DNA of 64,000 bases from Myxococcus stipitatus (GTDB lineage Bacteria; Myxococcota; Myxococcia; Myxococcales; Myxococcaceae), in NCBI RefSeq assembly GCF_037414475.1, contig NZ_CP147913.1, positions 3,596,001 to 3,660,000 on the forward strand. The letters run 5' to 3'. Shown piece after piece: positions 38,632 to 50,091 of the stretch. Each line of letters opens with the position of its first letter. Position 1 is the stretch's first letter. Below the pieces are notes generated by a model, which ran no database searches, was not told where the DNA came from, and saw only the letters and a list, made by a program, of their open reading frames with translations. Position numbers and translations under genes: made by a program.

Positions 38632-40476
38632 ATGGGCGGACTTGGAGCCCCCTGGTCTCAGCGCGCAGCGTGTACCCCCCGCTCGCTTGGCTGCCTGACG
38701 GCACGGCGGGCCCTGCTCACAGCTGCGCTCACCGCGTTGCTGGCGGCCTGCGGAGGCCCCGCGGACGCCAGCGCGCCGGACGACGACGCGCTGGGTACGG
38801 CGGACCCGGCGCTCCGGGCCGAGGATGCAGCGCGCCGCCCCAACCTGTCGAAGCCGGTGGGTCTGGCCCTCGAGGTCGACAACGGCCAGGGCAAGACGCT
38901 GAGCGTGCGGGCGGGACAGACCTTCTACGTCAACCAGATTGATATCCGCGCGGCGGTCCGGTCCACGTTCGACACCGGCATGTGGGCCCTGCGCACCACG
39001 AGCGACTTCGCGGGCGTGGGCTGGACGGGCCTGCGCCCGGTGGACGAGGAGCCCGTGCTGCTGGGGGGGCCCGGCCGCTATACCCGCCGCCGCTTCTACC
39101 GGGGCGCCGCCTGGATGGACCTCCCCAGCTTCTTCATCGTGGAGCCGGTGGACTCGCGCGGCAACCTCACGGGCACGCCCGTGGTGCTGAACATCGGTTC
39201 GGAGCACCAGCGCCGGACCACCACCGACGACTTCTTCGTGCGCCGCCTGCGCGCCATCCAGACCGCGTTCGACTGCACCACGCCCCGCGACTGCAACAGC
39301 GCCCGGGACTACGAGGAGGAGGCCCTCCTGGAAGTGCGCAACGCGTACCAGCACGCGCAGCAGCGCACCTTCAGCCTGAGCGCCCGCACCACCTCCCTGC
39401 GCCTGCGCTGGAGCCTGCGCCCCTTCGCGCCCTACACCATCCCCGTGCAGCAGGTGAACGCGCCCGAGTTCGCTTACGGCTTCGGCATCGACGTGGAGGC
39501 CCGCACCCCGCCCCGCCAGGACGGTACCTATGCCCCTGGGTCGGAAATCACCTTCCAGGTGACCCTCCGGGATGGGGAGGGCAAAAGGCTCCACCCGCAG
39601 GGAAGTCTACCGTCCTACAATGACGTCGTCCGGGGCTTCAATACGGCGGGCATCCAGTACTATCGGGCCTTCTTCGACGCGACCACGACGTACTACCGCC
39701 GGAAGCACCGGGAGCGGATGTTGATGACCCAAATCATTGGGCCCGCACAGAACATCCAACCCATCCGCTCCGTCATCGACCTGGACGCGTTCCTGGACCC
39801 GAAGGTCAACGAGCAGACCGTGGCCACGGAGAAGAGCGACGGGGTGTACTCCCAGTTCGCCATCCTGCCGTTCGCCAACATCGTCTTCCGCGGCGCCTTC
39901 TTCCCCGAAGAGGGCTTGTGGGACCTGCCCAACACGGACACGTGGAAGTACAAGATTCCCGCCAACGCCACGCCGGGCACGTACCTGGTGACGGTGAAGG
40001 GCCGCCGCGTGTACCTGGGCGAGGACCTGCCGGGCACGCGCACCATCGAAATCCAGGTGGGGACCCAGCAGCGCACGGAGGCCAAGCTCACCACGGGCCC
40101 GTGCAACAGCTGCCACAGCCAGGGCGCGGAGCTGTCCCAGGTGCTGCACGGCAACGACAACCGCGCCGCGTGCGCCGGCTGCCACGCGCCGCTGGGCTTC
40201 GAATTGGAAGGGCCCATCTTCGTGCGCACGCACTTCGTGCACTCGCGCTCCAACCGCTTTGGCGCGCCGCTGGAGAAGTGCGCCTCGTGTCACCTCACGA
40301 AGGAAAGCATCCAGCGCACCAGCCAGGCCGCGTGCCTGTCGTGCCACAAGAGCTACCCGGACAGCCACGTGGCGAAGTTCGGCCCCATCGAAAGCATGTA
40401 TGTCGGCGGAGGACGGCAGTCCTTCAAGCAGTGCACCGACTCGTGTCACACCCGGCACCCGCGCAGCGGCCTCTAA
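38632..40476 (+). CDS. Multiheme c-type cytochrome lipoprotein
   Basis: 614 residues. Lipobox LLAAC after a signal peptide (ALLTAALTALLAACGG) indicates an outer-membrane or periplasmic lipoprotein, with GAGGAGAG eight bases upstream of the ATG. The N-terminal two thirds are Thr/Asn/Arg-rich beta sequence with no recognised motif. The C-terminal ~130 residues hold four CxxCH heme motifs (CNSCH near 491, CAGCH near 514, CASCH near 550, CLSCH near 568) and a fifth CTDSCH near 601, a CX3CH variant. Extra His residues may serve as axial ligands. The role is electron transfer or redox sensing at the envelope. It is the first gene of an operon with the FIST protein 28 bp downstream. Confidence 0.88.
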   Translation: MGGLGAPWSQRAACTPRSLGCLTARRALLTAALTALLAACGGPADASAPDDDALGTADPALRAEDAARRPNLSKPVGLALEVDNGQGKTLSVRAGQTFYVNQIDIRAAVRSTFDTGMWALRTTSDFAGVGWTGLRPVDEEPVLLGGPGRYTRRRFYRGAAWMDLPSFFIVEPVDSRGNLTGTPVVLNIGSEHQRRTTTDDFFVRRLRAIQTAFDCTTPRDCNSARDYEEEALLEVRNAYQHAQQRTFSLSARTTSLRLRWSLRPFAPYTIPVQQVNAPEFAYGFGIDVEARTPPRQDGTYAPGSEITFQVTLRDGEGKRLHPQGSLPSYNDVVRGFNTAGIQYYRAFFDATTTYYRRKHRERMLMTQIIGPAQNIQPIRSVIDLDAFLDPKVNEQTVATEKSDGVYSQFAILPFANIVFRGAFFPEEGLWDLPNTDTWKYKIPANATPGTYLVTVKGRRVYLGEDLPGTRTIEIQVGTQQRTEAKLTTGPCNSCHSQGAELSQVLHGNDNRAACAGCHAPLGFELEGPIFVRTHFVHSRSNRFGAPLEKCASCHLTKESIQRTSQAACLSCHKSYPDSHVAKFGPIESMYVGGGRQSFKQCTDSCHTRHPRSGL

Positions 40477-40504
40477 GCCGCCGCCCCACCTCTGGAGGAC
40501 CTCC

Positions 40505-41668
40505 ATGGCCCAAGTGAAGATGCAGACGGCTCGCACCACGCTCCAGGAGCCGGCCGCGGCCGCGGAGGATTTGCTGCGCCAGCTGGGCCCCACCAAGCCC
40601 GTGCTGGTGACGATGTTCGCCTCGAGAGAGCGGGACCAGTACGCCTTGAACCGCGCGGTGCGCGAGCGGCTCCCCCCCGGCACGCGGCTGGTGGGCGCGA
40701 CGACGGCGGGGGAGCTGGACAACACCGGCATCCACGAGGGCAGCGTGGTGATGGCCGCCCTCTCCGGTGACCTGGAGGTGGGCCTGGGCCTGGGCACCGG
40801 GCTGTCCGTGGACGCCATCAACGCGGGGCAGATGGCCATCAAGCGCGCGTGCGACGAGCTGGGCGTGCGCCAGCAGGACCTGGACGCGCGCCGCTGCGTG
40901 GGCCTCGTCATCGACGATGGCTTCCGTTACAAGAAAGAGGAGCTGCTTCTGGGCATCCTCGAGAAGAACCAGACGCTGGTGCTCGTGGGCGGCGGCGCCA
41001 GCGACCACAACCGGGACCCGGCGCGTCAGTCCGCGCTGGTGCACGTGGATGGTGAAGTGGCCACCGACGCGGTGCTGGTGGCGCTGTTCCGCACCAACGC
41101 GCCCTGGGCCGCGTTGCGCTCGCACTGGTACGTGCCCACCGGGGAGCGGCTCACCATCACCAAGGTGGACGAGAGCCACACGCGCGCGCTGGAGATTGAC
41201 GGCTTCCCCGCCGCCAAGCGCTACGCGGAAATCCTGGGCGTGAAGGACGTGAAGGACCTGGAGTTCGGCACGCCCCAGGGCTTCGCGGTGCGCCCCACCG
41301 CGCTGCGCGTGGGACGCGAGTACTTCATCCGCGCCGCGTGGCGGCCCAACGAGGACGGCTCCATCCTCTTCGCCAACCTGCTGGAGGAAGGCACCGAGCT
41401 GGAGCTGATGAAGCTGGGCGACATGGCGGGCATGACGCGCGGCTTCTTCGCGGAGGAGTTGCCCAAGCGGGTCCAGAACCCGCAGGCCGCGCTGCTGTTC
41501 CACTGCGGCGGGCGCATGTGGTACGCGCACGCGACGAACACGGTGTCCCAGCTCGCGGAGACCCTGAAGGCCGCGCCCACCGCCGCGGGGATGAACGTGC
41601 ACTTCGAGATTTATTCAGGGTTCCACATCAACACCACGCTCACCACGCTGGTGTTCGGGGCGAACTGA
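40505..41668 (+). CDS. FIST-domain sensory protein
   Basis: 387 residues, with GGAGG seven bases before the ATG. The N-terminal FIST region has TTAGELDNTGIHEGSVVMAA and GLGLGTGLSVDAIN; a later RCVGLVIDDGFRYKKEELLL, then a Gly-rich VLVGGGASDHNRDPA, and the C-terminal FIST_C has ALLFHCGGRMW and YSGFHINTTLTTLVFG. FIST is a bacterial sensor domain often linked to kinases and cyclase-type proteins, proposed to bind small ligands (amino acids), though the ligand here is not known. No signal peptide, so it is cytoplasmic. It ends 3 bp before the hybrid kinase, strongly suggesting that it feeds that kinase. Confidence 0.9.
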   Translation: MAQVKMQTARTTLQEPAAAAEDLLRQLGPTKPVLVTMFASRERDQYALNRAVRERLPPGTRLVGATTAGELDNTGIHEGSVVMAALSGDLEVGLGLGTGLSVDAINAGQMAIKRACDELGVRQQDLDARRCVGLVIDDGFRYKKEELLLGILEKNQTLVLVGGGASDHNRDPARQSALVHVDGEVATDAVLVALFRTNAPWAALRSHWYVPTGERLTITKVDESHTRALEIDGFPAAKRYAEILGVKDVKDLEFGTPQGFAVRPTALRVGREYFIRAAWRPNEDGSILFANLLEEGTELELMKLGDMAGMTRGFFAEELPKRVQNPQAALLFHCGGRMWYAHATNTVSQLAETLKAAPTAAGMNVHFEIYSGFHINTTLTTLVFGAN

Positions 41669-41671
41669 GCC

Positions 41672-44614
41672 ATGGTCAACACCCTAGCTTCCCCTGTCTC
41701 GCCGGCGGACTCCGCCACCCTCCTGCTGGTGGGCAGCGAGCGCGAGTGCCAGCGCGTGGAAGAGGCGCTCGCCCACGCGGGCATCGCCGCCGCTGTCCAG
41801 CGCGCCACGAGCCCCGACGCGCTGGAGGCCGCGCTGACGCGCCCCTGGTCGCTGGTCGTCTGCGGCTCGGAGGTCCCGGGCCTGGGCTTCGCCGAGGCCC
41901 AGGCACGGTGGCGCAAGCAGCAGAAGGACTTGCCCTTCGTGGTGCTGTCGCGCGAGTGGAGCGACGCCACGCTGGAGGCCAGCACCCAGGCCGGCGCCCG
42001 CGACTACGTCAGCGAGGACCGCTTCAACCGCATGGCGCCCGTGCTGCGCCGCGAGCTGCCGCTGGCCCGCGCGATGTCGCGCCATGACGCCACCACGGAA
42101 GAGCTGCTGCGCACCAACTGGATTCTGGGCAACATCCTGGACGCGCTGCCCTTCGTGCTCTTCGTGAAGGACGCGAAGACGCGCCGCCTCGTCGTGGTCA
42201 ACAAGACCTTCGCGGACGCGTTCAACGTCACCAAGGAGTGGCTGCTCGGCAAGCTGGACCACGACTACTTCCCGCCGGAGCAGGCCGACTCGTTCATCAC
42301 CATCGACACGGAGATTCTCGCCTCCAAGAAGATGCGCGCCTTCGAGGAGGTGGCCCGCGCCAGCGGCGTGGACCGCATCTTCGCCACGCGCAAGCTGCCG
42401 CTCCTGGATGACTCCGGCGAGGCCAGCTACCTCCTGGGCGTCACCGAGGACATCACCGAGCGCAAGCAGAACGAGGAGATGCTGCGCGCGTCCAAGGCGG
42501 AGCTGGAGGCGGCCAACAAGCAACTGGCCGCGAGCCTGGAGGAGATCAAGCGCACCCGCGCGGTGTCCGCCCGCTCGCTGGCGTCCTATCAGCAGCGCGC
42601 GCTGCAGATGGAGATCATCCGCCAGCAGAACGAGGACCTGGACCGGCTGGCCCAGGAGCTGGCGGTGGCCAAGCGCAACGAGGAGGAGCGCGCCCGCGAG
42701 GCCGAGGCCGCCGCCCGCCTCAAGAGCGAGTTCCTGGCCAACTTCAGCCACGAAATCCGCACGCCCCTCAACGGCATCATCGGCTACTGCGACCTCCTGA
42801 TGCGCGAGGAGGGCTCGCGGCTGACGGCCCACGGCCGGCGCGACCTCAACGTCGTGAAGACGAACGCCAAGACGCTGCTGGCGCTCATCAACGACATCCT
42901 GGACCTGTCCAAGATTGAAGCGGGCCGCGTGGAGGTCGTCACCGAGGCGGTGGACGTGCGCGAGCTGGCCGACGAGTGCATGGCCACGGTGAAGGAGTAC
43001 CTCAAGGGCAAGGACGTGGCCCTCACCACGAACATCGACGTGGCGGCGGGCATCCTGCGCACCGACGCGCTCAAGCTGCGGCAAATCATGCTCAACCTCT
43101 TGAGCAACGCCGCCAAGTTCACCGAGACGGGCGAGGTGGCGCTGAGCGTGGTGCCCTCCGGCGACGAGGTGGTGATGACGGTGGAGGACACCGGCGTCGG
43201 CATCCCCTCCGACCAGCTGCCCTTCATCTTCGAGAAGTTCCGCCAGGTGGACGGCTCCACCACGCGCAAGGTGGGCGGCACGGGCCTGGGGCTCGCCATC
43301 GTGCGGGAGCTGTCGCGGGTCCTGGGCGGCAACGTCACGGTGACGTCCACGCTGGGCCGGGGCACCACCTTCACCGTGCGCCTGCCCAACATCCTGGAGG
43401 CCCCCGCCGACGGCCAGAATGGCGTGGAGCGCGCGGTCCCCGTCGCGGAGGTGGCCCACCACCTCAACACCGTCGCGCAGCCGGGCAGCACGGTGCTGGT
43501 GGTGGATGACGACCCGCTCATCCAGCAGCTCGTCACCGGCCAATTGGCGCCCGCGGGCTTCAAGGTCGTGGTGGCCGAGGACGGCATCGCCGCGCTCAAG
43601 CGCGCCCGCGAGCTCAAGCCCCAGGCCATCCTCCTGGACATCCACCTGCCCAAGCTGGACGGCTGGTCCGTGCTCAGCCAGCTCAAGAGCGAGCCGACGC
43701 TGGCGGGCATCCCCGTCATCCTCATCTCCGTGGAGGAGCAGCGCGCGCGGGGCTTCTCGCTGGGGGCGTGTGAGTACCTGGTCAAGCCCGTGGAGCCGGA
43801 GCGGCTGGTGGAGGTGGTGCAGCGCAGCCTGGGCCAGACTCCCGGCGCCGCCACTGGCGTGGGCGAGGTGCTGGTGGTGGACGACGACGCGGCCACGCGC
43901 GAGCTCGTCAGCCGCAACCTGCGCCGCGCGGGCTTCAGCACCGCCGAGGCACGCAACGGCGAGGACGCGCTGCTCAAGGCGCGCGTGTCTCCGCCGTCAC
44001 TCGTCGTGCTGGATTTGATGATGCCCAACCTGGACGGCTTCGAGGTGCTGCGGCGCCTGCGCGCCGAGAAGCTCCAGGTCCCCGTCGTCGTGCTCACCGG
44101 CAAGTCGCTCACGTCCGAGGAGGAAGCGCTCCTGCGCGACGGCTTCGCCGGCTTCGTGAAGAAGGGAGGCCACGCGCTCGAGGACGTCATCGCTCAAGCC
44201 AAGGGCCTCTTGTTGTCCCAGCGCGCCGCCACCGCCGGAAGGCTGCCGCGCATCTTGTATGTGGAAGACAGTGCCCAGAATCGGGACATCGTCCGGCGCT
44301 ACCTCGGTGGACTGTTCGAGGTCATCGAGGCGGAGGATGGAGAACACGGACTGGAGCGCGCCACGCGCGACAACCCAGACCTCATCTTGATGGACTTGTC
44401 CCTGCCGCGCCTGGATGGTTGGGAGGCAACACGCCGCTTGCGTGCGGTGCCCTCCGTGGCCAACGTGCCGGTCATCGCGGTGACTGCGCATGCGGGGCGG
44501 GAGTATCAAGACAAAGCACACGCGGCGGGCTGCACCGCGTACCTCACCAAGCCCCTTGATCGTGACCAGTTGCTCGAGATGATTCGCAAGCATCTAGGGA
44601 GAAGCCATGGTTGA
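41672..44614 (+). CDS. Hybrid histidine kinase: pseudo-receiver, PAS, kinase, three receivers
   Basis: 980 residues, no membrane helix. Residues ~14-130 look like a receiver whose phosphoacceptor Asp is replaced: SLVVCGSEVPG has Gly65 where Asp is expected. A PAS domain (~145-265) ends with VTEDITERK, then a coiled coil (~268-350). The kinase core has H-box FSHEIRTPLN (His360), N-box LLSNAAKF, DTGVGIP and GTGLGLAI. Three C-terminal receivers follow, each with an intact Asp (ILLDIHLP, VVLDLMMP, ILMDLSLP). Multi-receiver kinases can run internal phosphorelays. The stop overlaps the start of the next receiver gene by 8 bp. Together with FIST and the cytochrome it forms one signalling operon. Confidence 0.93.
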   Translation: MVNTLASPVSPADSATLLLVGSERECQRVEEALAHAGIAAAVQRATSPDALEAALTRPWSLVVCGSEVPGLGFAEAQARWRKQQKDLPFVVLSREWSDATLEASTQAGARDYVSEDRFNRMAPVLRRELPLARAMSRHDATTEELLRTNWILGNILDALPFVLFVKDAKTRRLVVVNKTFADAFNVTKEWLLGKLDHDYFPPEQADSFITIDTEILASKKMRAFEEVARASGVDRIFATRKLPLLDDSGEASYLLGVTEDITERKQNEEMLRASKAELEAANKQLAASLEEIKRTRAVSARSLASYQQRALQMEIIRQQNEDLDRLAQELAVAKRNEEERAREAEAAARLKSEFLANFSHEIRTPLNGIIGYCDLLMREEGSRLTAHGRRDLNVVKTNAKTLLALINDILDLSKIEAGRVEVVTEAVDVRELADECMATVKEYLKGKDVALTTNIDVAAGILRTDALKLRQIMLNLLSNAAKFTETGEVALSVVPSGDEVVMTVEDTGVGIPSDQLPFIFEKFRQVDGSTTRKVGGTGLGLAIVRELSRVLGGNVTVTSTLGRGTTFTVRLPNILEAPADGQNGVERAVPVAEVAHHLNTVAQPGSTVLVVDDDPLIQQLVTGQLAPAGFKVVVAEDGIAALKRARELKPQAILLDIHLPKLDGWSVLSQLKSEPTLAGIPVILISVEEQRARGFSLGACEYLVKPVEPERLVEVVQRSLGQTPGAATGVGEVLVVDDDAATRELVSRNLRRAGFSTAEARNGEDALLKARVSPPSLVVLDLMMPNLDGFEVLRRLRAEKLQVPVVVLTGKSLTSEEEALLRDGFAGFVKKGGHALEDVIAQAKGLLLSQRAATAGRLPRILYVEDSAQNRDIVRRYLGGLFEVIEAEDGEHGLERATRDNPDLILMDLSLPRLDGWEATRRLRAVPSVANVPVIAVTAHAGREYQDKAHAAGCTAYLTKPLDRDQLLEMIRKHLGRSHG

Positions 44615-45002
44615 AGAAAAAGCACGCGTCCTGGTGGTGGACGATGACCCGGACCTGCTCGACCTCGTCCAGCGCTCGCTGAGCAGCTACGGCTTCGAGG
44701 TGCTGACGCACACGTCGGCCTTGGGCGTCTCCAACCTGGTCAGCGCCTCCGAGCCGGACTTCGTCCTCATCGACGTCAACTTCCCCGCCCTCAAGGGCGA
44801 CAAGGTCGTCAACCTCGCGCGGCAGTACGCCTCCGCGAAGACCAAGTTCATCCTCTACTCCGCCTCGGATGAGTCCAAGCTGCGCTCGCTCGCACTGGCC
44901 TCCGGCGCGGATGGATACATCTCCAAGAGCGTCCAGGGAGAGGACCTCGCCAACCGGCTGCGCACCTTCCGACTCAAGCCACGCCCACCCGCAGTCCCCT
45001 GA
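44607..45002 (+). CDS. Stand-alone receiver protein, last gene of the FIST-kinase operon
   Basis: 131 residues of CheY-like receiver only. Intact features: VVDDD pocket, Asp in LIDVNFP, Ser/Thr region LYSASDES and Lys in YISKS. It overlaps the hybrid kinase stop by 8 bp and should be its phosphorylation target. By hand alignment about 80 of 121 positions are identical to the receiver at 49687, including the distinctive LGVSNLV and ASGADGYI. There is no output domain, so it probably regulates by binding. A strong hairpin terminator lies 18 bp downstream. Confidence 0.93.
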   Translation: MVEEKARVLVVDDDPDLLDLVQRSLSSYGFEVLTHTSALGVSNLVSASEPDFVLIDVNFPALKGDKVVNLARQYASAKTKFILYSASDESKLRSLALASGADGYISKSVQGEDLANRLRTFRLKPRPPAVP

Positions 45003-45160: not shown

Positions 45161-46054
45161 ATGCACACGTCACCCGGTTACAGTTTCGCGGAAAAATTGC
45201 GGCAAGAACTGGATACCCCTCTTTTCAACCCGCTGCTGAAGAAGTGGGTGGGACGCGGGGAGCTGGACTACGAGGTCTATCTCAAGACACCGCAGCTCTT
45301 GTCGTTGCAGTCGGGCGAGGCCGAGCGTGTCGCCCACGACGAGCTGATGTTTCAGGTGGTGCATCAGGCGCAGGAGCTGTGGCTGAAGCTGGCCTCGCGC
45401 GAGACGGTGGAGGTGGTGGCGGAGCTGGACCGCGACGCGCTGTGGGCCGCGTCCGCGCGGCTGGAGCGGGTGGTGCGCATCCTCCGCGGCCTGTCCTCCG
45501 AGCTGGGCGTGCTGGAGACGATGACGCCGGACACCTACCAGGTCATCCGCCGCAGCCTGGGCAATGGCAGCGGACAGGAGTCACCGGGTTACAACATGCT
45601 CCGCAAGGCGGCGGAGGGACTGGCGCTGGCGCTGGAGCGGCTCCTCGCGCGCCGCGCGCAGACGGTCCTCGGCGTCTACCGAGGCGGGCCGGATGACTTG
45701 AAGCGCCTGTGCGAGCAGATGCTGGACGTGGACGAGGCCTTCCAGGGCTGGCTGCACGCGCACTTCCAATTGGTGCGGCGCACCATCGGCGTGGACCGCT
45801 CGGTGAAGGCGCTGGACGGGCTGCCCACGCAGGTGCTGGCGGGGCGCATGACGCTGCCCCTGTTCCGCAACCTCTGGGACGCACGCGTGGAGCTGACCGC
45901 CAGCTGGCGGCGCGAGGGCGGCCATGCCCCCGGCGCCAGCCGCGAGGGTTGCATGGAGGGCGCCATGGGCGTGGGCGCCTACGCCCCCCCCATGCCCAGC
46001 GGCGCGTGCCCCATGCACGCGGGCCTGACCTCCGCGACGAGGGGCGACTCGTGA
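45161..46054 (+). CDS. Atypical tryptophan 2,3-dioxygenase-family heme protein
   Basis: 297 residues, with GGAGGG four bases before the ATG. The TDO fold signature is clear: YLKTPQLLSLQ, HDELMFQVVHQAQELWLK (distal-type His68) and LETMTPDTYQVIRRSLGNGS. The proximal heme ligand is likely His201 in HAHFQLVRRTIG (family H-xxx-V-x-R-x-IG). Two features of true tryptophan dioxygenases are missing as I recall the family: the arginine of FQSxQFR aligns with Asn145, and the GTGGSSG substrate loop is replaced (SVKALDGLPTQ). It may act on another aromatic substrate, as do other members of the heme-dependent aromatic oxygenase superfamily. The C-terminal ~45 residues are Gly/Ala/Met-rich. Translation is coupled to the methyltransferase by GTGA. 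Confidence 0.8.
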   Translation: MHTSPGYSFAEKLRQELDTPLFNPLLKKWVGRGELDYEVYLKTPQLLSLQSGEAERVAHDELMFQVVHQAQELWLKLASRETVEVVAELDRDALWAASARLERVVRILRGLSSELGVLETMTPDTYQVIRRSLGNGSGQESPGYNMLRKAAEGLALALERLLARRAQTVLGVYRGGPDDLKRLCEQMLDVDEAFQGWLHAHFQLVRRTIGVDRSVKALDGLPTQVLAGRMTLPLFRNLWDARVELTASWRREGGHAPGASREGCMEGAMGVGAYAPPMPSGACPMHAGLTSATRGDS

Positions 46055-47094
46055 AGGAGGTGCCCCGCCCGCTGGCGGAGTCACCGCGCGCGCTGTTGCA
46101 CCTGCTCTACAATGGCGCGAAGGCCGTGGACGTGGTGGAGGCGTCGCTCCAGCTGGGGCTGCTCGACTCGCTGGAGGGCCCCTCCCCCATCACCCTCGCG
46201 GAGCTGTCCGCGAAGCACTCGCTGGTGCCGGGCCGGCTCTACAAGCTTCTGGACTGCCTGGAGAGCCTGGGGCTGGTGAAGCGCGAGCAGGACACGGACG
46301 CGCTCGCGTCGGCGCGATACAGCGCGGTGGCGGGCCTGCGCGAGGCGGCCCTCGCGGTGGTGGGGCCTCAGTCCAGGGAGAGGGACCGTGAGAAGTTCGC
46401 CTGGCGCAAGCTGTACGGGCACCTGCCCGAGGTGCTGCGCGGCCAGCACTCCATCTCCCCCGACGACTTCGACTGGCCGCTGCGCACCCCGGAGCAACTG
46501 GAGGGCTTCGAGACGAGCATGGCCGTGGGCCTGCCGCCCATCCTGGAGAGCCTGCGTCAGCACGGGGCACGGCTCTGGCGGGACGGCATGCGGGTGCTCG
46601 ACGTGGGCGGCGGAGATGGAAGCCTCGCGGCGCACCTGACGCGCGAGCACCCCACCGCGCGCGTGGACGTCTACAACCTGCCCGCCACCCAGCCGCTGGT
46701 GGAGCGCACGCGCGAGCGCTTCGAGCTGGGGCCCTCGAGATTGGGCTTCGTGGCCGGGGACTTCCTCCAGGAGCCGCTGCCTGGCGGTTATGACGTGCTG
46801 ATGTTCGTGCGGGTGCTGCACGACTGGTCCGCGCAGACGGCGCTCCACCTGCTGAAGTCCGCGTGGGCCGCGCTGCCCTCCGGTGGACGCGTCATCATCT
46901 GCGAGGAGTTCCGCACGGCGGAGCGCCTGGCCGCGCAGTTCTTCTGGACGTACTTCCTCATCGGCGTGGACTCGTGTGTCAGCCGGCTGCGCGAGGTGGA
47001 GCACTACCAGCGGATGCTCCAGGAGGCGGGCTTCCACGACACCCAGGTGCTCAGCGGTGGACCCTTCGAGCTGGTGACGGCCGTCAAGCCCTGA
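46051..47094 (+). CDS. SAM-dependent methyltransferase (O-methyltransferase-like)
   Basis: 347 residues starting at GTG 46051, whose GTGA overlaps the TDO-like stop; GAGGGG lies six bases upstream. The N-terminal ~100 residues are a dimerisation winged-helix domain (LAELSAKHSLVPGRLYKLLD). The C-terminal Rossmann domain has the SAM motif VLDVGGGDGS, the following acidic strand ARVDVYNLP, and the catalytic-region RVLHDWS, whose His is the base in plant-like O-methyltransferases. That set matches small-molecule O-methyltransferases of secondary metabolism. Its likely substrate is the product of the coupled heme protein, a two-step tailoring of an aromatic compound, which is inference. Confidence 0.88.
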   Translation: MKEVPRPLAESPRALLHLLYNGAKAVDVVEASLQLGLLDSLEGPSPITLAELSAKHSLVPGRLYKLLDCLESLGLVKREQDTDALASARYSAVAGLREAALAVVGPQSRERDREKFAWRKLYGHLPEVLRGQHSISPDDFDWPLRTPEQLEGFETSMAVGLPPILESLRQHGARLWRDGMRVLDVGGGDGSLAAHLTREHPTARVDVYNLPATQPLVERTRERFELGPSRLGFVAGDFLQEPLPGGYDVLMFVRVLHDWSAQTALHLLKSAWAALPSGGRVIICEEFRTAERLAAQFFWTYFLIGVDSCVSRLREVEHYQRMLQEAGFHDTQVLSGGPFELVTAVKP

Positions 47095-49507: not shown

Positions 49508-49686
49508 GACAAGCACCCTGACGGCCCGTTATGGGCCCATGCCTCACGGCGAGGACCCGCGGCCGTTGCAACGAGATGTGGCGACAGCGAGCCGGCGGCT
49601 AGGTGATAATTCGTAGGCCACCCGGCCCGGTGGCGACTTCCGGTGGGCCGCGGCATCCAGTCCGCGCTCCCTTTGGGGGAGGAGTC

Positions 49687-50091
49687 ATGTCGGAGATGAA
49701 GATCCGCGTGCTGGTGGTGGACGACGACCAGGAGCAGCTGACGTTGGCGGAGCGCTCGTTGTCGGCGTATGGGTTCGACGTGCGGACGCACCGCTCCTCG
49801 TTGGGCGTGTCGAACCTGGTGCGCTCGACGTTGCCAGACTTGGTGTTGCTGGACGTGAACATCCCCGCGCTCACCGGGGACAAGGTGCTGACGCTGGCGC
49901 GAGGGCAGGCCCCGGCGGGCACGCTCTTCGTGCTCTTCTCCGCGTCGGACGAGTCCACGCTGCGCCAGTTGGCGAAGGCCTCCGGCGCGGACGGCTACAT
50001 CACCAAGAGCACCCAGGGCGAGGACCTGGCCAAGAAGCTCCACGCCATCCACGCCAAGGCCCGGGGCACCGCGTCACCCTCCGCGCCCTGA
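49687..50091 (+). CDS. Stand-alone receiver protein (paralogue of the 44607 receiver)
   Basis: 134 residues of receiver only. GGAGGAG lies 3 bp before the ATG. It keeps VVDDD, Asp in LLDVNIP, Ser in LFSASDES and Lys in YITKS. Its sequence closely follows the receiver at 44607 (about 80 identities in 121 positions by hand), including LGVSNLV, ASGADGYI and QGEDLA. It is separated from the upstream kinase by a hairpin and 212 bp, so it is probably separately transcribed. It is convergent with the ABC1 kinase gene, 9 bp away. Confidence 0.93.
   Translation: MSEMKIRVLVVDDDQEQLTLAERSLSAYGFDVRTHRSSLGVSNLVRSTLPDLVLLDVNIPALTGDKVLTLARGQAPAGTLFVLFSASDESTLRQLAKASGADGYITKSTQGEDLAKKLHAIHAKARGTASPSAP

Follow-up and report, generated by a model that had tools for sequence, protein, structure and literature searches.

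Within the 64,000-nucleotide window of Myxococcus stipitatus DNA analysed here, a heme gene of the tryptophan 2,3-dioxygenase (TDO) type, encoding P0001, is directly coupled to a gene for a putative O-methyltransferase, P0002, and this pair probably makes a small tryptophan-derived molecule. We favour, with moderate confidence, a reading in which P0001 is an enzyme of a compact TDO side-branch that oxygenates tryptophan or a derivative to an N-formylkynurenine-type product, which would be cleaved by a pyridoxal-phosphate (PLP) enzyme where the locus has kept one and subsequently methylated. The initial annotation had found real genes and the right superfamily, while its claim about a substrate-binding arginine was wrong and the setting is more interesting than first stated.

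The gene pair and its active site

The window is part of a 10.3-Mb single-contig genome, which is grouped with 26 others of one genus, and the named loci with a P0001-type protein come mostly from Myxococcus and Pyxidicoccus. The following features are relevant:

40346..41668, plus strand: FIST-domain protein upstream of the kinase (context)
41672..44614, plus strand: hybrid histidine kinase with PAS_4, HisKA, HATPase_c and three receiver domains (Pfam, 41672-44611)
44607..45002, plus strand: protein with a single receiver domain, a conserved neighbour
45161..46054, plus strand: heme gene P0001, 297 aa, predicted compact TDO-clade heme protein (Pfam and alignment), with a distal His68 and a proximal His201, Arg130 at the carboxylate site, ALDG replacing GTGG, and a C-terminal tail with CPMH
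46051..47094, plus strand: methyltransferase gene P0002, 347 aa, predicted SAM-dependent O-methyltransferase with dimerisation domain and Methyltransf_2

Both open reading frames were found where the initial annotation had placed them, and the coupling it described was borne out, the GTG start of P0002 overlapping the stop codon of the heme gene in a GTGA at 46051-46054. P0001 passes the Pfam gathering cut-off for Trp_dioxygenase (PF03301; 91 bits, E 1.3e-25, cut-off 34.9), and P0002 passes those for both Methyltransf_2 (PF00891; 85.8 bits, E 3.3e-24, cut-off 22.3) and Dimerisation (PF08100; 29.7 bits, cut-off 25.6), in agreement with the earlier description of the coupled gene as an O-methyltransferase. 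Judged by these sequence scores, the two family assignments are far beyond chance.

P0001 had been described as lacking the canonical substrate residues, with Asn145 in place of the arginine that binds the carboxylate of tryptophan. In the phmmer alignment with TDO of Xanthomonas campestris (2nw7, residue numbers counted from the printed chain), P0001 TYQVIRRSLG stands opposite EYMGFRDVLG, so that Arg130 pairs with Arg117, Tyr126 with Tyr113 and His68 with His55, while Asn145 falls opposite Arg132 of QYRYI. The loss of the arginine at Asn145 was thus rejected, because a different arginine had been aligned. According to phmmer, the profile search and a 50-row alignment, all nine compared pocket positions of X. 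campestris TDO (Tyr24, Tyr27, Leu28, Phe51, His55, Tyr113, Arg117, Leu120, and His240) have identical counterparts in P0001, which contradicts the supposed lack of substrate residues. The canonical trio of distal His55, carboxylate Arg117 and proximal His240 is matched by His68, Arg130 and His201, and the two histidines align as had been proposed. Over 28 long-form rows, Tyr37, Tyr40, Phe64, His68, Arg130, Leu133, and His201 are invariant, while Leu41 is replaced by Val in three and Tyr126 by Phe in one.

The roles of these pocket residues in X. campestris TDO are presumed here to be those generally assigned to them; residue roles in MarE and human TDO are described in an excerpt of PMC11904535. 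Since nine of nine positions match, the P0001 pocket looks fit for tryptophan or a close amino-acid derivative and not for an unrelated aromatic compound. P0001 would then be a histidine-ligated heme enzyme, which may hold L-tryptophan or a close derivative in the manner of TDO, with the indole NH directed to His68 and the carboxylate to Arg130, and may insert oxygen into the indole to yield, most likely, an N-formylkynurenine-type product.

The C-terminal tail of P0001 (45923-46051) carries a CP(M/V/A)H-type motif, which is also present in 41 of 53 scanned relative loci (partly duplicate genomes). In some relatives the tail has grown to a His/Ala- or Pro-rich extension, with open frames of up to 610 aa.

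Loop, predicted fold and phylogenetic placement

The absence of the GTGGSSG loop, noted earlier, was confirmed by the 50-row alignment, where P0001 has KALDGLP at that place; the GTGGS loop with Thr254 of canonical TDO is not found in P0001, which shows ALDG instead. At the GTGG position, the long forms read ALDG. SLKG is the version of seven compact relatives from Myxococcota, one of which has SLKD, and also of Rhizobium, Alloyangia and Novosphingobium; Micromonospora, Streptomyces (first gene), Nonomuraea and Vibrio have GT(K/Q/R)G. As well, P0001 scores 116.4 bits against the NCBIfam TDO equivalog TIGR03036, which has a cut-off of 390.7, and is therefore regarded as no canonical TDO; that identity was rejected because both the equivalog cut-off and the GTGGS loop were missed. 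Compared with X. campestris TDO (2nw7/2nw8; TIGR03036), P0001 shares the fold, the histidine pair, and the counterparts of Arg117, Tyr113, Phe51, Tyr24/Tyr27/Leu28 and Leu120, but the GTGGSSG loop and the alphaF/alphaG insertions are wanting, and it has LGNGSGQESPGYN where TDO has LGPSSGFQSLQYR. Alignment and profile alignment gaps indicate that these two insertions are missing in the P0001 family, as they are in MarE.

A model of P0001 was predicted by AlphaFold2 from 15 rows, with a mean pLDDT of 65.9, several core blocks at 90-95, and a loop (211-228) and tail below 50. When compared with Foldseek-preselected chains, this model matched MarE 8vyy (Z 18.6, 205 aligned, rmsd 4.6; best among the matches listed), MarE 9ca3 (Z 18.3, 200 aligned, rmsd 3.4), X. 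campestris TDO 2nw8 (Z 16.5, 193 aligned, rmsd 3.2), and IDO (Z about 12), while PrnB, TyrH and SfmD were not among the 50 matches listed in this preselected set. The model thus indicates a heme-dependent aromatic oxygenase fold. The proposal of a TDO-superfamily heme protein stands by the PF03301 match and the fold match to TDO, MarE and IDO; the part of it that had the substrate residues lost does not.

MarE, the 2-oxindole-forming enzyme of maremycin synthesis (9CA3, 8VYY), suggests a different outcome, in which P0001 is a mono-oxygenase whose SLGG/ALDG-type loop and missing alphaF/alphaG insertions lead to a 2-oxindole or pyrroloindoline that the methyltransferase caps. Besides the best predicted fold match among those listed and the absent insertions, P0001 shares with MarE a Cys in the C-terminal tail and a Leu at the position of the loop Thr; in our favoured reading, too, this Leu may allow a mono-oxygenated side product. 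The partner genes of P0001 presumably differ from those of maremycin synthesis. In sequence, P0001 is closer to X. campestris TDO than to MarE (96.1 versus 31.9 bits, phmmer), and the DATG and SLGGR loops of MarE, which stands outside our alignment and tree and whose loops were taken by name from an excerpt of PMC11904535, are not found in P0001, where NGSG and ALDG occur. According to an excerpt of PMC12312684, human TDO with SLGGS for GTGGS still gave about 95% N-formylkynurenine and just about 5% mono-oxygenation, so that the loss of the loop Thr alone leaves dioxygenation possible for P0001; MarE without ascorbate was likewise described there to favour dioxygenation. Moreover, a kynureninase-like partner, described below, would be better matched to a gamma-keto product with an opened ring than to an oxindole. 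We therefore consider a MarE-like reaction unlikely, though it is the strongest of the competing explanations.

In a tree of 46 rows (12 of the 50 alignment rows dropped as near-copies or ~414-aa second paralogs, eight fetched rows added), compact and long forms fall together on one side of a branch with 100/98 support, and the canonical TDOs, seven from the same phylum plus the window genome's own, on the other. Row L130, labelled canonical, is the same compact gene as L107 and is read as compact in this statement; because of that label, the tree group statistics show two changes. The inner placement is unsure owing to the long branches of L048, L122, L108, L055 and Vibrio. On this sequence tree, P0001 belongs to a supported clade of compact TDO-like proteins, seen in Myxococcota, Actinomycetota, Alphaproteobacteria, and one Vibrio. 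The clade has a loop of its own, of SLKG/ALDG or GTKG type, and a class-V PLP partner recurs beside its members; in the plasmid records inspected, these are annotated just as 'tryptophan 2,3-dioxygenase family protein'.

Partner genes and proposed chemistry

The co-occurrence of the two genes was scanned in 96 genomes of the GTDB family at a threshold of E 1e-60. The P0001-type heme gene was detected in 56 genomes, which rules out a gene-finder artefact, the methyltransferase in 57, and both in 56 (Fisher p 3e-26, a statistic that ignores kinship). The genome with a methyltransferase and no heme gene is G128, where the match to the methyltransferase starts with the very first base of a contig. 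The earlier idea of an oxygenase and a methyltransferase acting together thus gains from all 56 heme-positive genomes keeping the methyltransferase. Against our favoured reading, the methyltransferase lies about 5.4-5.5 kb past its nearest partner gene in L042/L113 and L104. In Pyxidicoccus fallax (L042:9246-14285), three other genes, of which two look protein-kinase-like by eye, separate the methyltransferase from the heme gene.

P0002 resembles Methyltransf_2 O-methyltransferases (RedM, hydroxyindole O-methyltransferase and SibL among its PDB matches) in its dimerisation and SAM domains and in the RVLHDW motif, the His of which we take to be the catalytic base, but it reaches no NCBIfam equivalog cut-off, scoring 94.7 bits against the BchU C-20 methyltransferase TIGR02716 (cut-off 276.1). 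It would methylate the aromatic product that results from the preceding steps.

The initial annotation saw no other biosynthetic genes adjacent, which is right for the window; many loci of relatives hold more, with a kynureninase-like PLP gene in 14 and an alpha/beta-hydrolase gene in 17 of 33. The PLP gene sits between the heme gene and the methyltransferase, and the 14 loci reduce to 12 distinct ones because there are duplicate genomes among the 33 (e.g., L044 = L094, L047 = L096). In L100, the PLP gene overlaps both the heme gene and the methyltransferase gene by 4 bases. A close PLP ortholog occurs in 25 of the 96 family genomes, 24 with the heme/methyltransferase pair and one without, and seven further genomes have only 37-41% homologs. 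The exception, G142, carries an 80% ortholog (C210:55176-56303), and neither the heme gene nor the methyltransferase was detected there at E 1e-60. No close ortholog was found at E 1e-60 in any of the 27 genomes of the window's genus, indicating that the pair works there without a PLP partner, which counts against our favoured reading; we infer that the PLP gene was lost rather than gained. A mere relocation of the PLP gene in the window genome was rejected, because no match was obtained at the same threshold; that genome has a 31% full-length PLP paralog, weaker ones, and a canonical kynureninase.

The PLP protein of Hyalangium has kynureninase 1qz9 as its best PDB match (126.8 bits, versus 84.9 for SufS), and two PLP partner proteins pass the KYNU_C cut-off (41.5 and 46.6 versus 27). 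The partner shares with kynureninase the counterparts of the PLP Lys, Asp201 and Trp256, the KYNU_C domain and the terminal Arg, but Asp132, His204 and Tyr226 of the Pseudomonas fluorescens enzyme are replaced; the roles of these residues are assumed here from general knowledge. These replacements count against our favoured reading, as does the kynureninase equivalog TIGR01814, whose cut-off of 246.4 the partners miss with 88.3 and 85 bits, and in the NCBIfam equivalog scan they score higher for SufS than for kynureninase. It is the intact tryptophan pocket together with the kynureninase-like partner that suggests oxygenation of tryptophan or a close derivative to an N-formylkynurenine-like product. 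Where the PLP enzyme is kept, side-chain cleavage would follow oxygenation. The alpha/beta-hydrolase gene, which is absent in the window, lies downstream of the methyltransferase; one of three hydrolases scanned exceeds the dienelactone-hydrolase cut-off, and the enzyme could act as a formamidase.

Compact relatives in other lineages are found in several settings. A class-V PLP gene adjoins the compact heme gene in G044, G053, a Micromonospora plasmid (where a nitric-oxide synthase gene is also near) and Novosphingobium (where the heme gene precedes the PLP gene and, by eye, a permease-like gene), and lies about 3.3 kb away in Alloyangia. The Streptomyces homolog has peptide-synthetase genes beside it. 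No PLP gene was seen beside the compact heme gene in Rhizobium, two Streptomyces NBC plasmids, and Myxococcota L107 and L108; the Rhizobium and the two Myxococcota cases speak against the favoured reading.

The plasmids from Streptomyces and Micromonospora encode another TDO-like protein, about 414-423 aa long (L116:8726-9967, L124:8735-9976, L114:9883-11151), directly downstream or one gene on, and the two Streptomyces copies have Leu in the distal His column. A fused FAD-binding/old-yellow-enzyme protein is encoded near the compact heme gene in L056 (7788-10082) and L057 (8796-11060, the copy scanned), which we take to resemble 2-aminobenzoyl-CoA monooxygenase/reductase.

G039, G044, G047 and G053 (the last 69% complete) have no TDO-like match besides the compact form, and G044 and G053 have no kynureninase-family match besides the adjacent PLP gene. 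These cases would suit a redundant second TDO serving ordinary tryptophan breakdown or NAD synthesis, with the methyltransferase as a by-stander. However, heme-positive Myxococcaceae genomes have a second TDO-like match, which was canonical in the three inspected (the window genome, G105 and G119), and at E 1e-60 there is no heme-positive genome without the methyltransferase. Since the window genome carries both a TDO (C1:4628438) and a kynureninase (469.8 bits) of the canonical kind elsewhere, ordinary breakdown by the pair would be redundant, which also weighs against our favoured reading. The pair is thus unlikely to be the ordinary kynurenine route of this genome, and the explanation as a whole seems improbable. 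Literature searches for Myxococcus with kynureninase returned only a biocatalysis review, and those for Myxococcus xanthus with tryptophan 2,3-dioxygenase returned nothing, the comma in the name probably defeating such text searches.

Kinase neighbourhood and possible links to RodK and socE

A three-receiver hybrid kinase adjoins all 33 long-form loci examined, and of 35 loci, 33 have kinase, receiver, heme gene and methyltransferase together, while the remaining two are of the compact form. The heme and methyltransferase genes of G041 (L058) are oriented opposite to the kinase and receiver genes. This company, the variable His/Cys-rich tail, and the PAS-domain proteins within 3 kb of the Rhizobium compact gene could mean that the heme protein acts as a heme-based sensor or signalling component of the kinase locus and not in metabolism. 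Such a role is very improbable, given the fully kept catalytic pocket, a partner that is itself an enzyme (the methyltransferase), and compact homologs in the Micromonospora, Streptomyces and Novosphingobium settings described above.

The window kinase is, by Pfam, a hybrid kinase with three receiver domains, the number that we take RodK to have. RodK is MXAN_0733 and is listed, in an excerpt of PMC2129111, among the genes required for fruiting-body development; an excerpt of PMC11784639 describes it with several receiver domains. On the M. xanthus chromosome, the mxan0733 region lies at 33 degrees (PMC3778016, excerpt); the corresponding value for the heme gene is 33.2 degrees in G006, 34.9 in G021, 32.0 in G008, and 30.4 in G014. 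Only these four of nine genus genomes of one or two contigs have it at 30-35 degrees; it is found at 127 degrees in G000, 258 in G002, 115 in G009, 210 in G013, and 295 in G017, which may just reflect contig start points. In addition, MXAN_0736 is a histidine kinase according to excerpts of PMC11928866 and PMC4320627, and a histidine kinase likewise occupies the third place upstream of the three-receiver kinase, in the window (Pfam) as well as in M. xanthus AM003 (L046; 75% identical). By chromosome position and gene order, the window kinase is thus probably the RodK ortholog.

MXAN_0731 is socE, whose product inhibits the stringent response (PMC4320627, excerpt), and its tag is two away from MXAN_0733. 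When genes were counted in L046, tag 0731 coincided with the heme gene or with either of two long alternative frames lying over the heme/methyltransferase pair, one of 532 aa on the strand of the pair and one of 524 aa in antisense. The counting is off by one further on, where a Ser/Thr kinase counted at 0725 is reported as 0724, and the socE link is thus a lead and no result. We regard it as quite doubtful that a methylated tryptophan-derived molecule of the pair is tied to RodK, with socE being the heme gene or a mis-called frame over the pair; if this were true, it would be through the oxidation chemistry of tryptophan that SocE takes part in deciding between growth and development. As the myxobacterial branch goes with a methyltransferase beside a probable developmental kinase, its product and the identity of socE are directly testable.

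Finally, a second single-receiver protein is encoded downstream of the locus (49603-50091); compared with the receiver protein at 44607-45002, the counterparts of this second protein in relatives show 64-69% identity.
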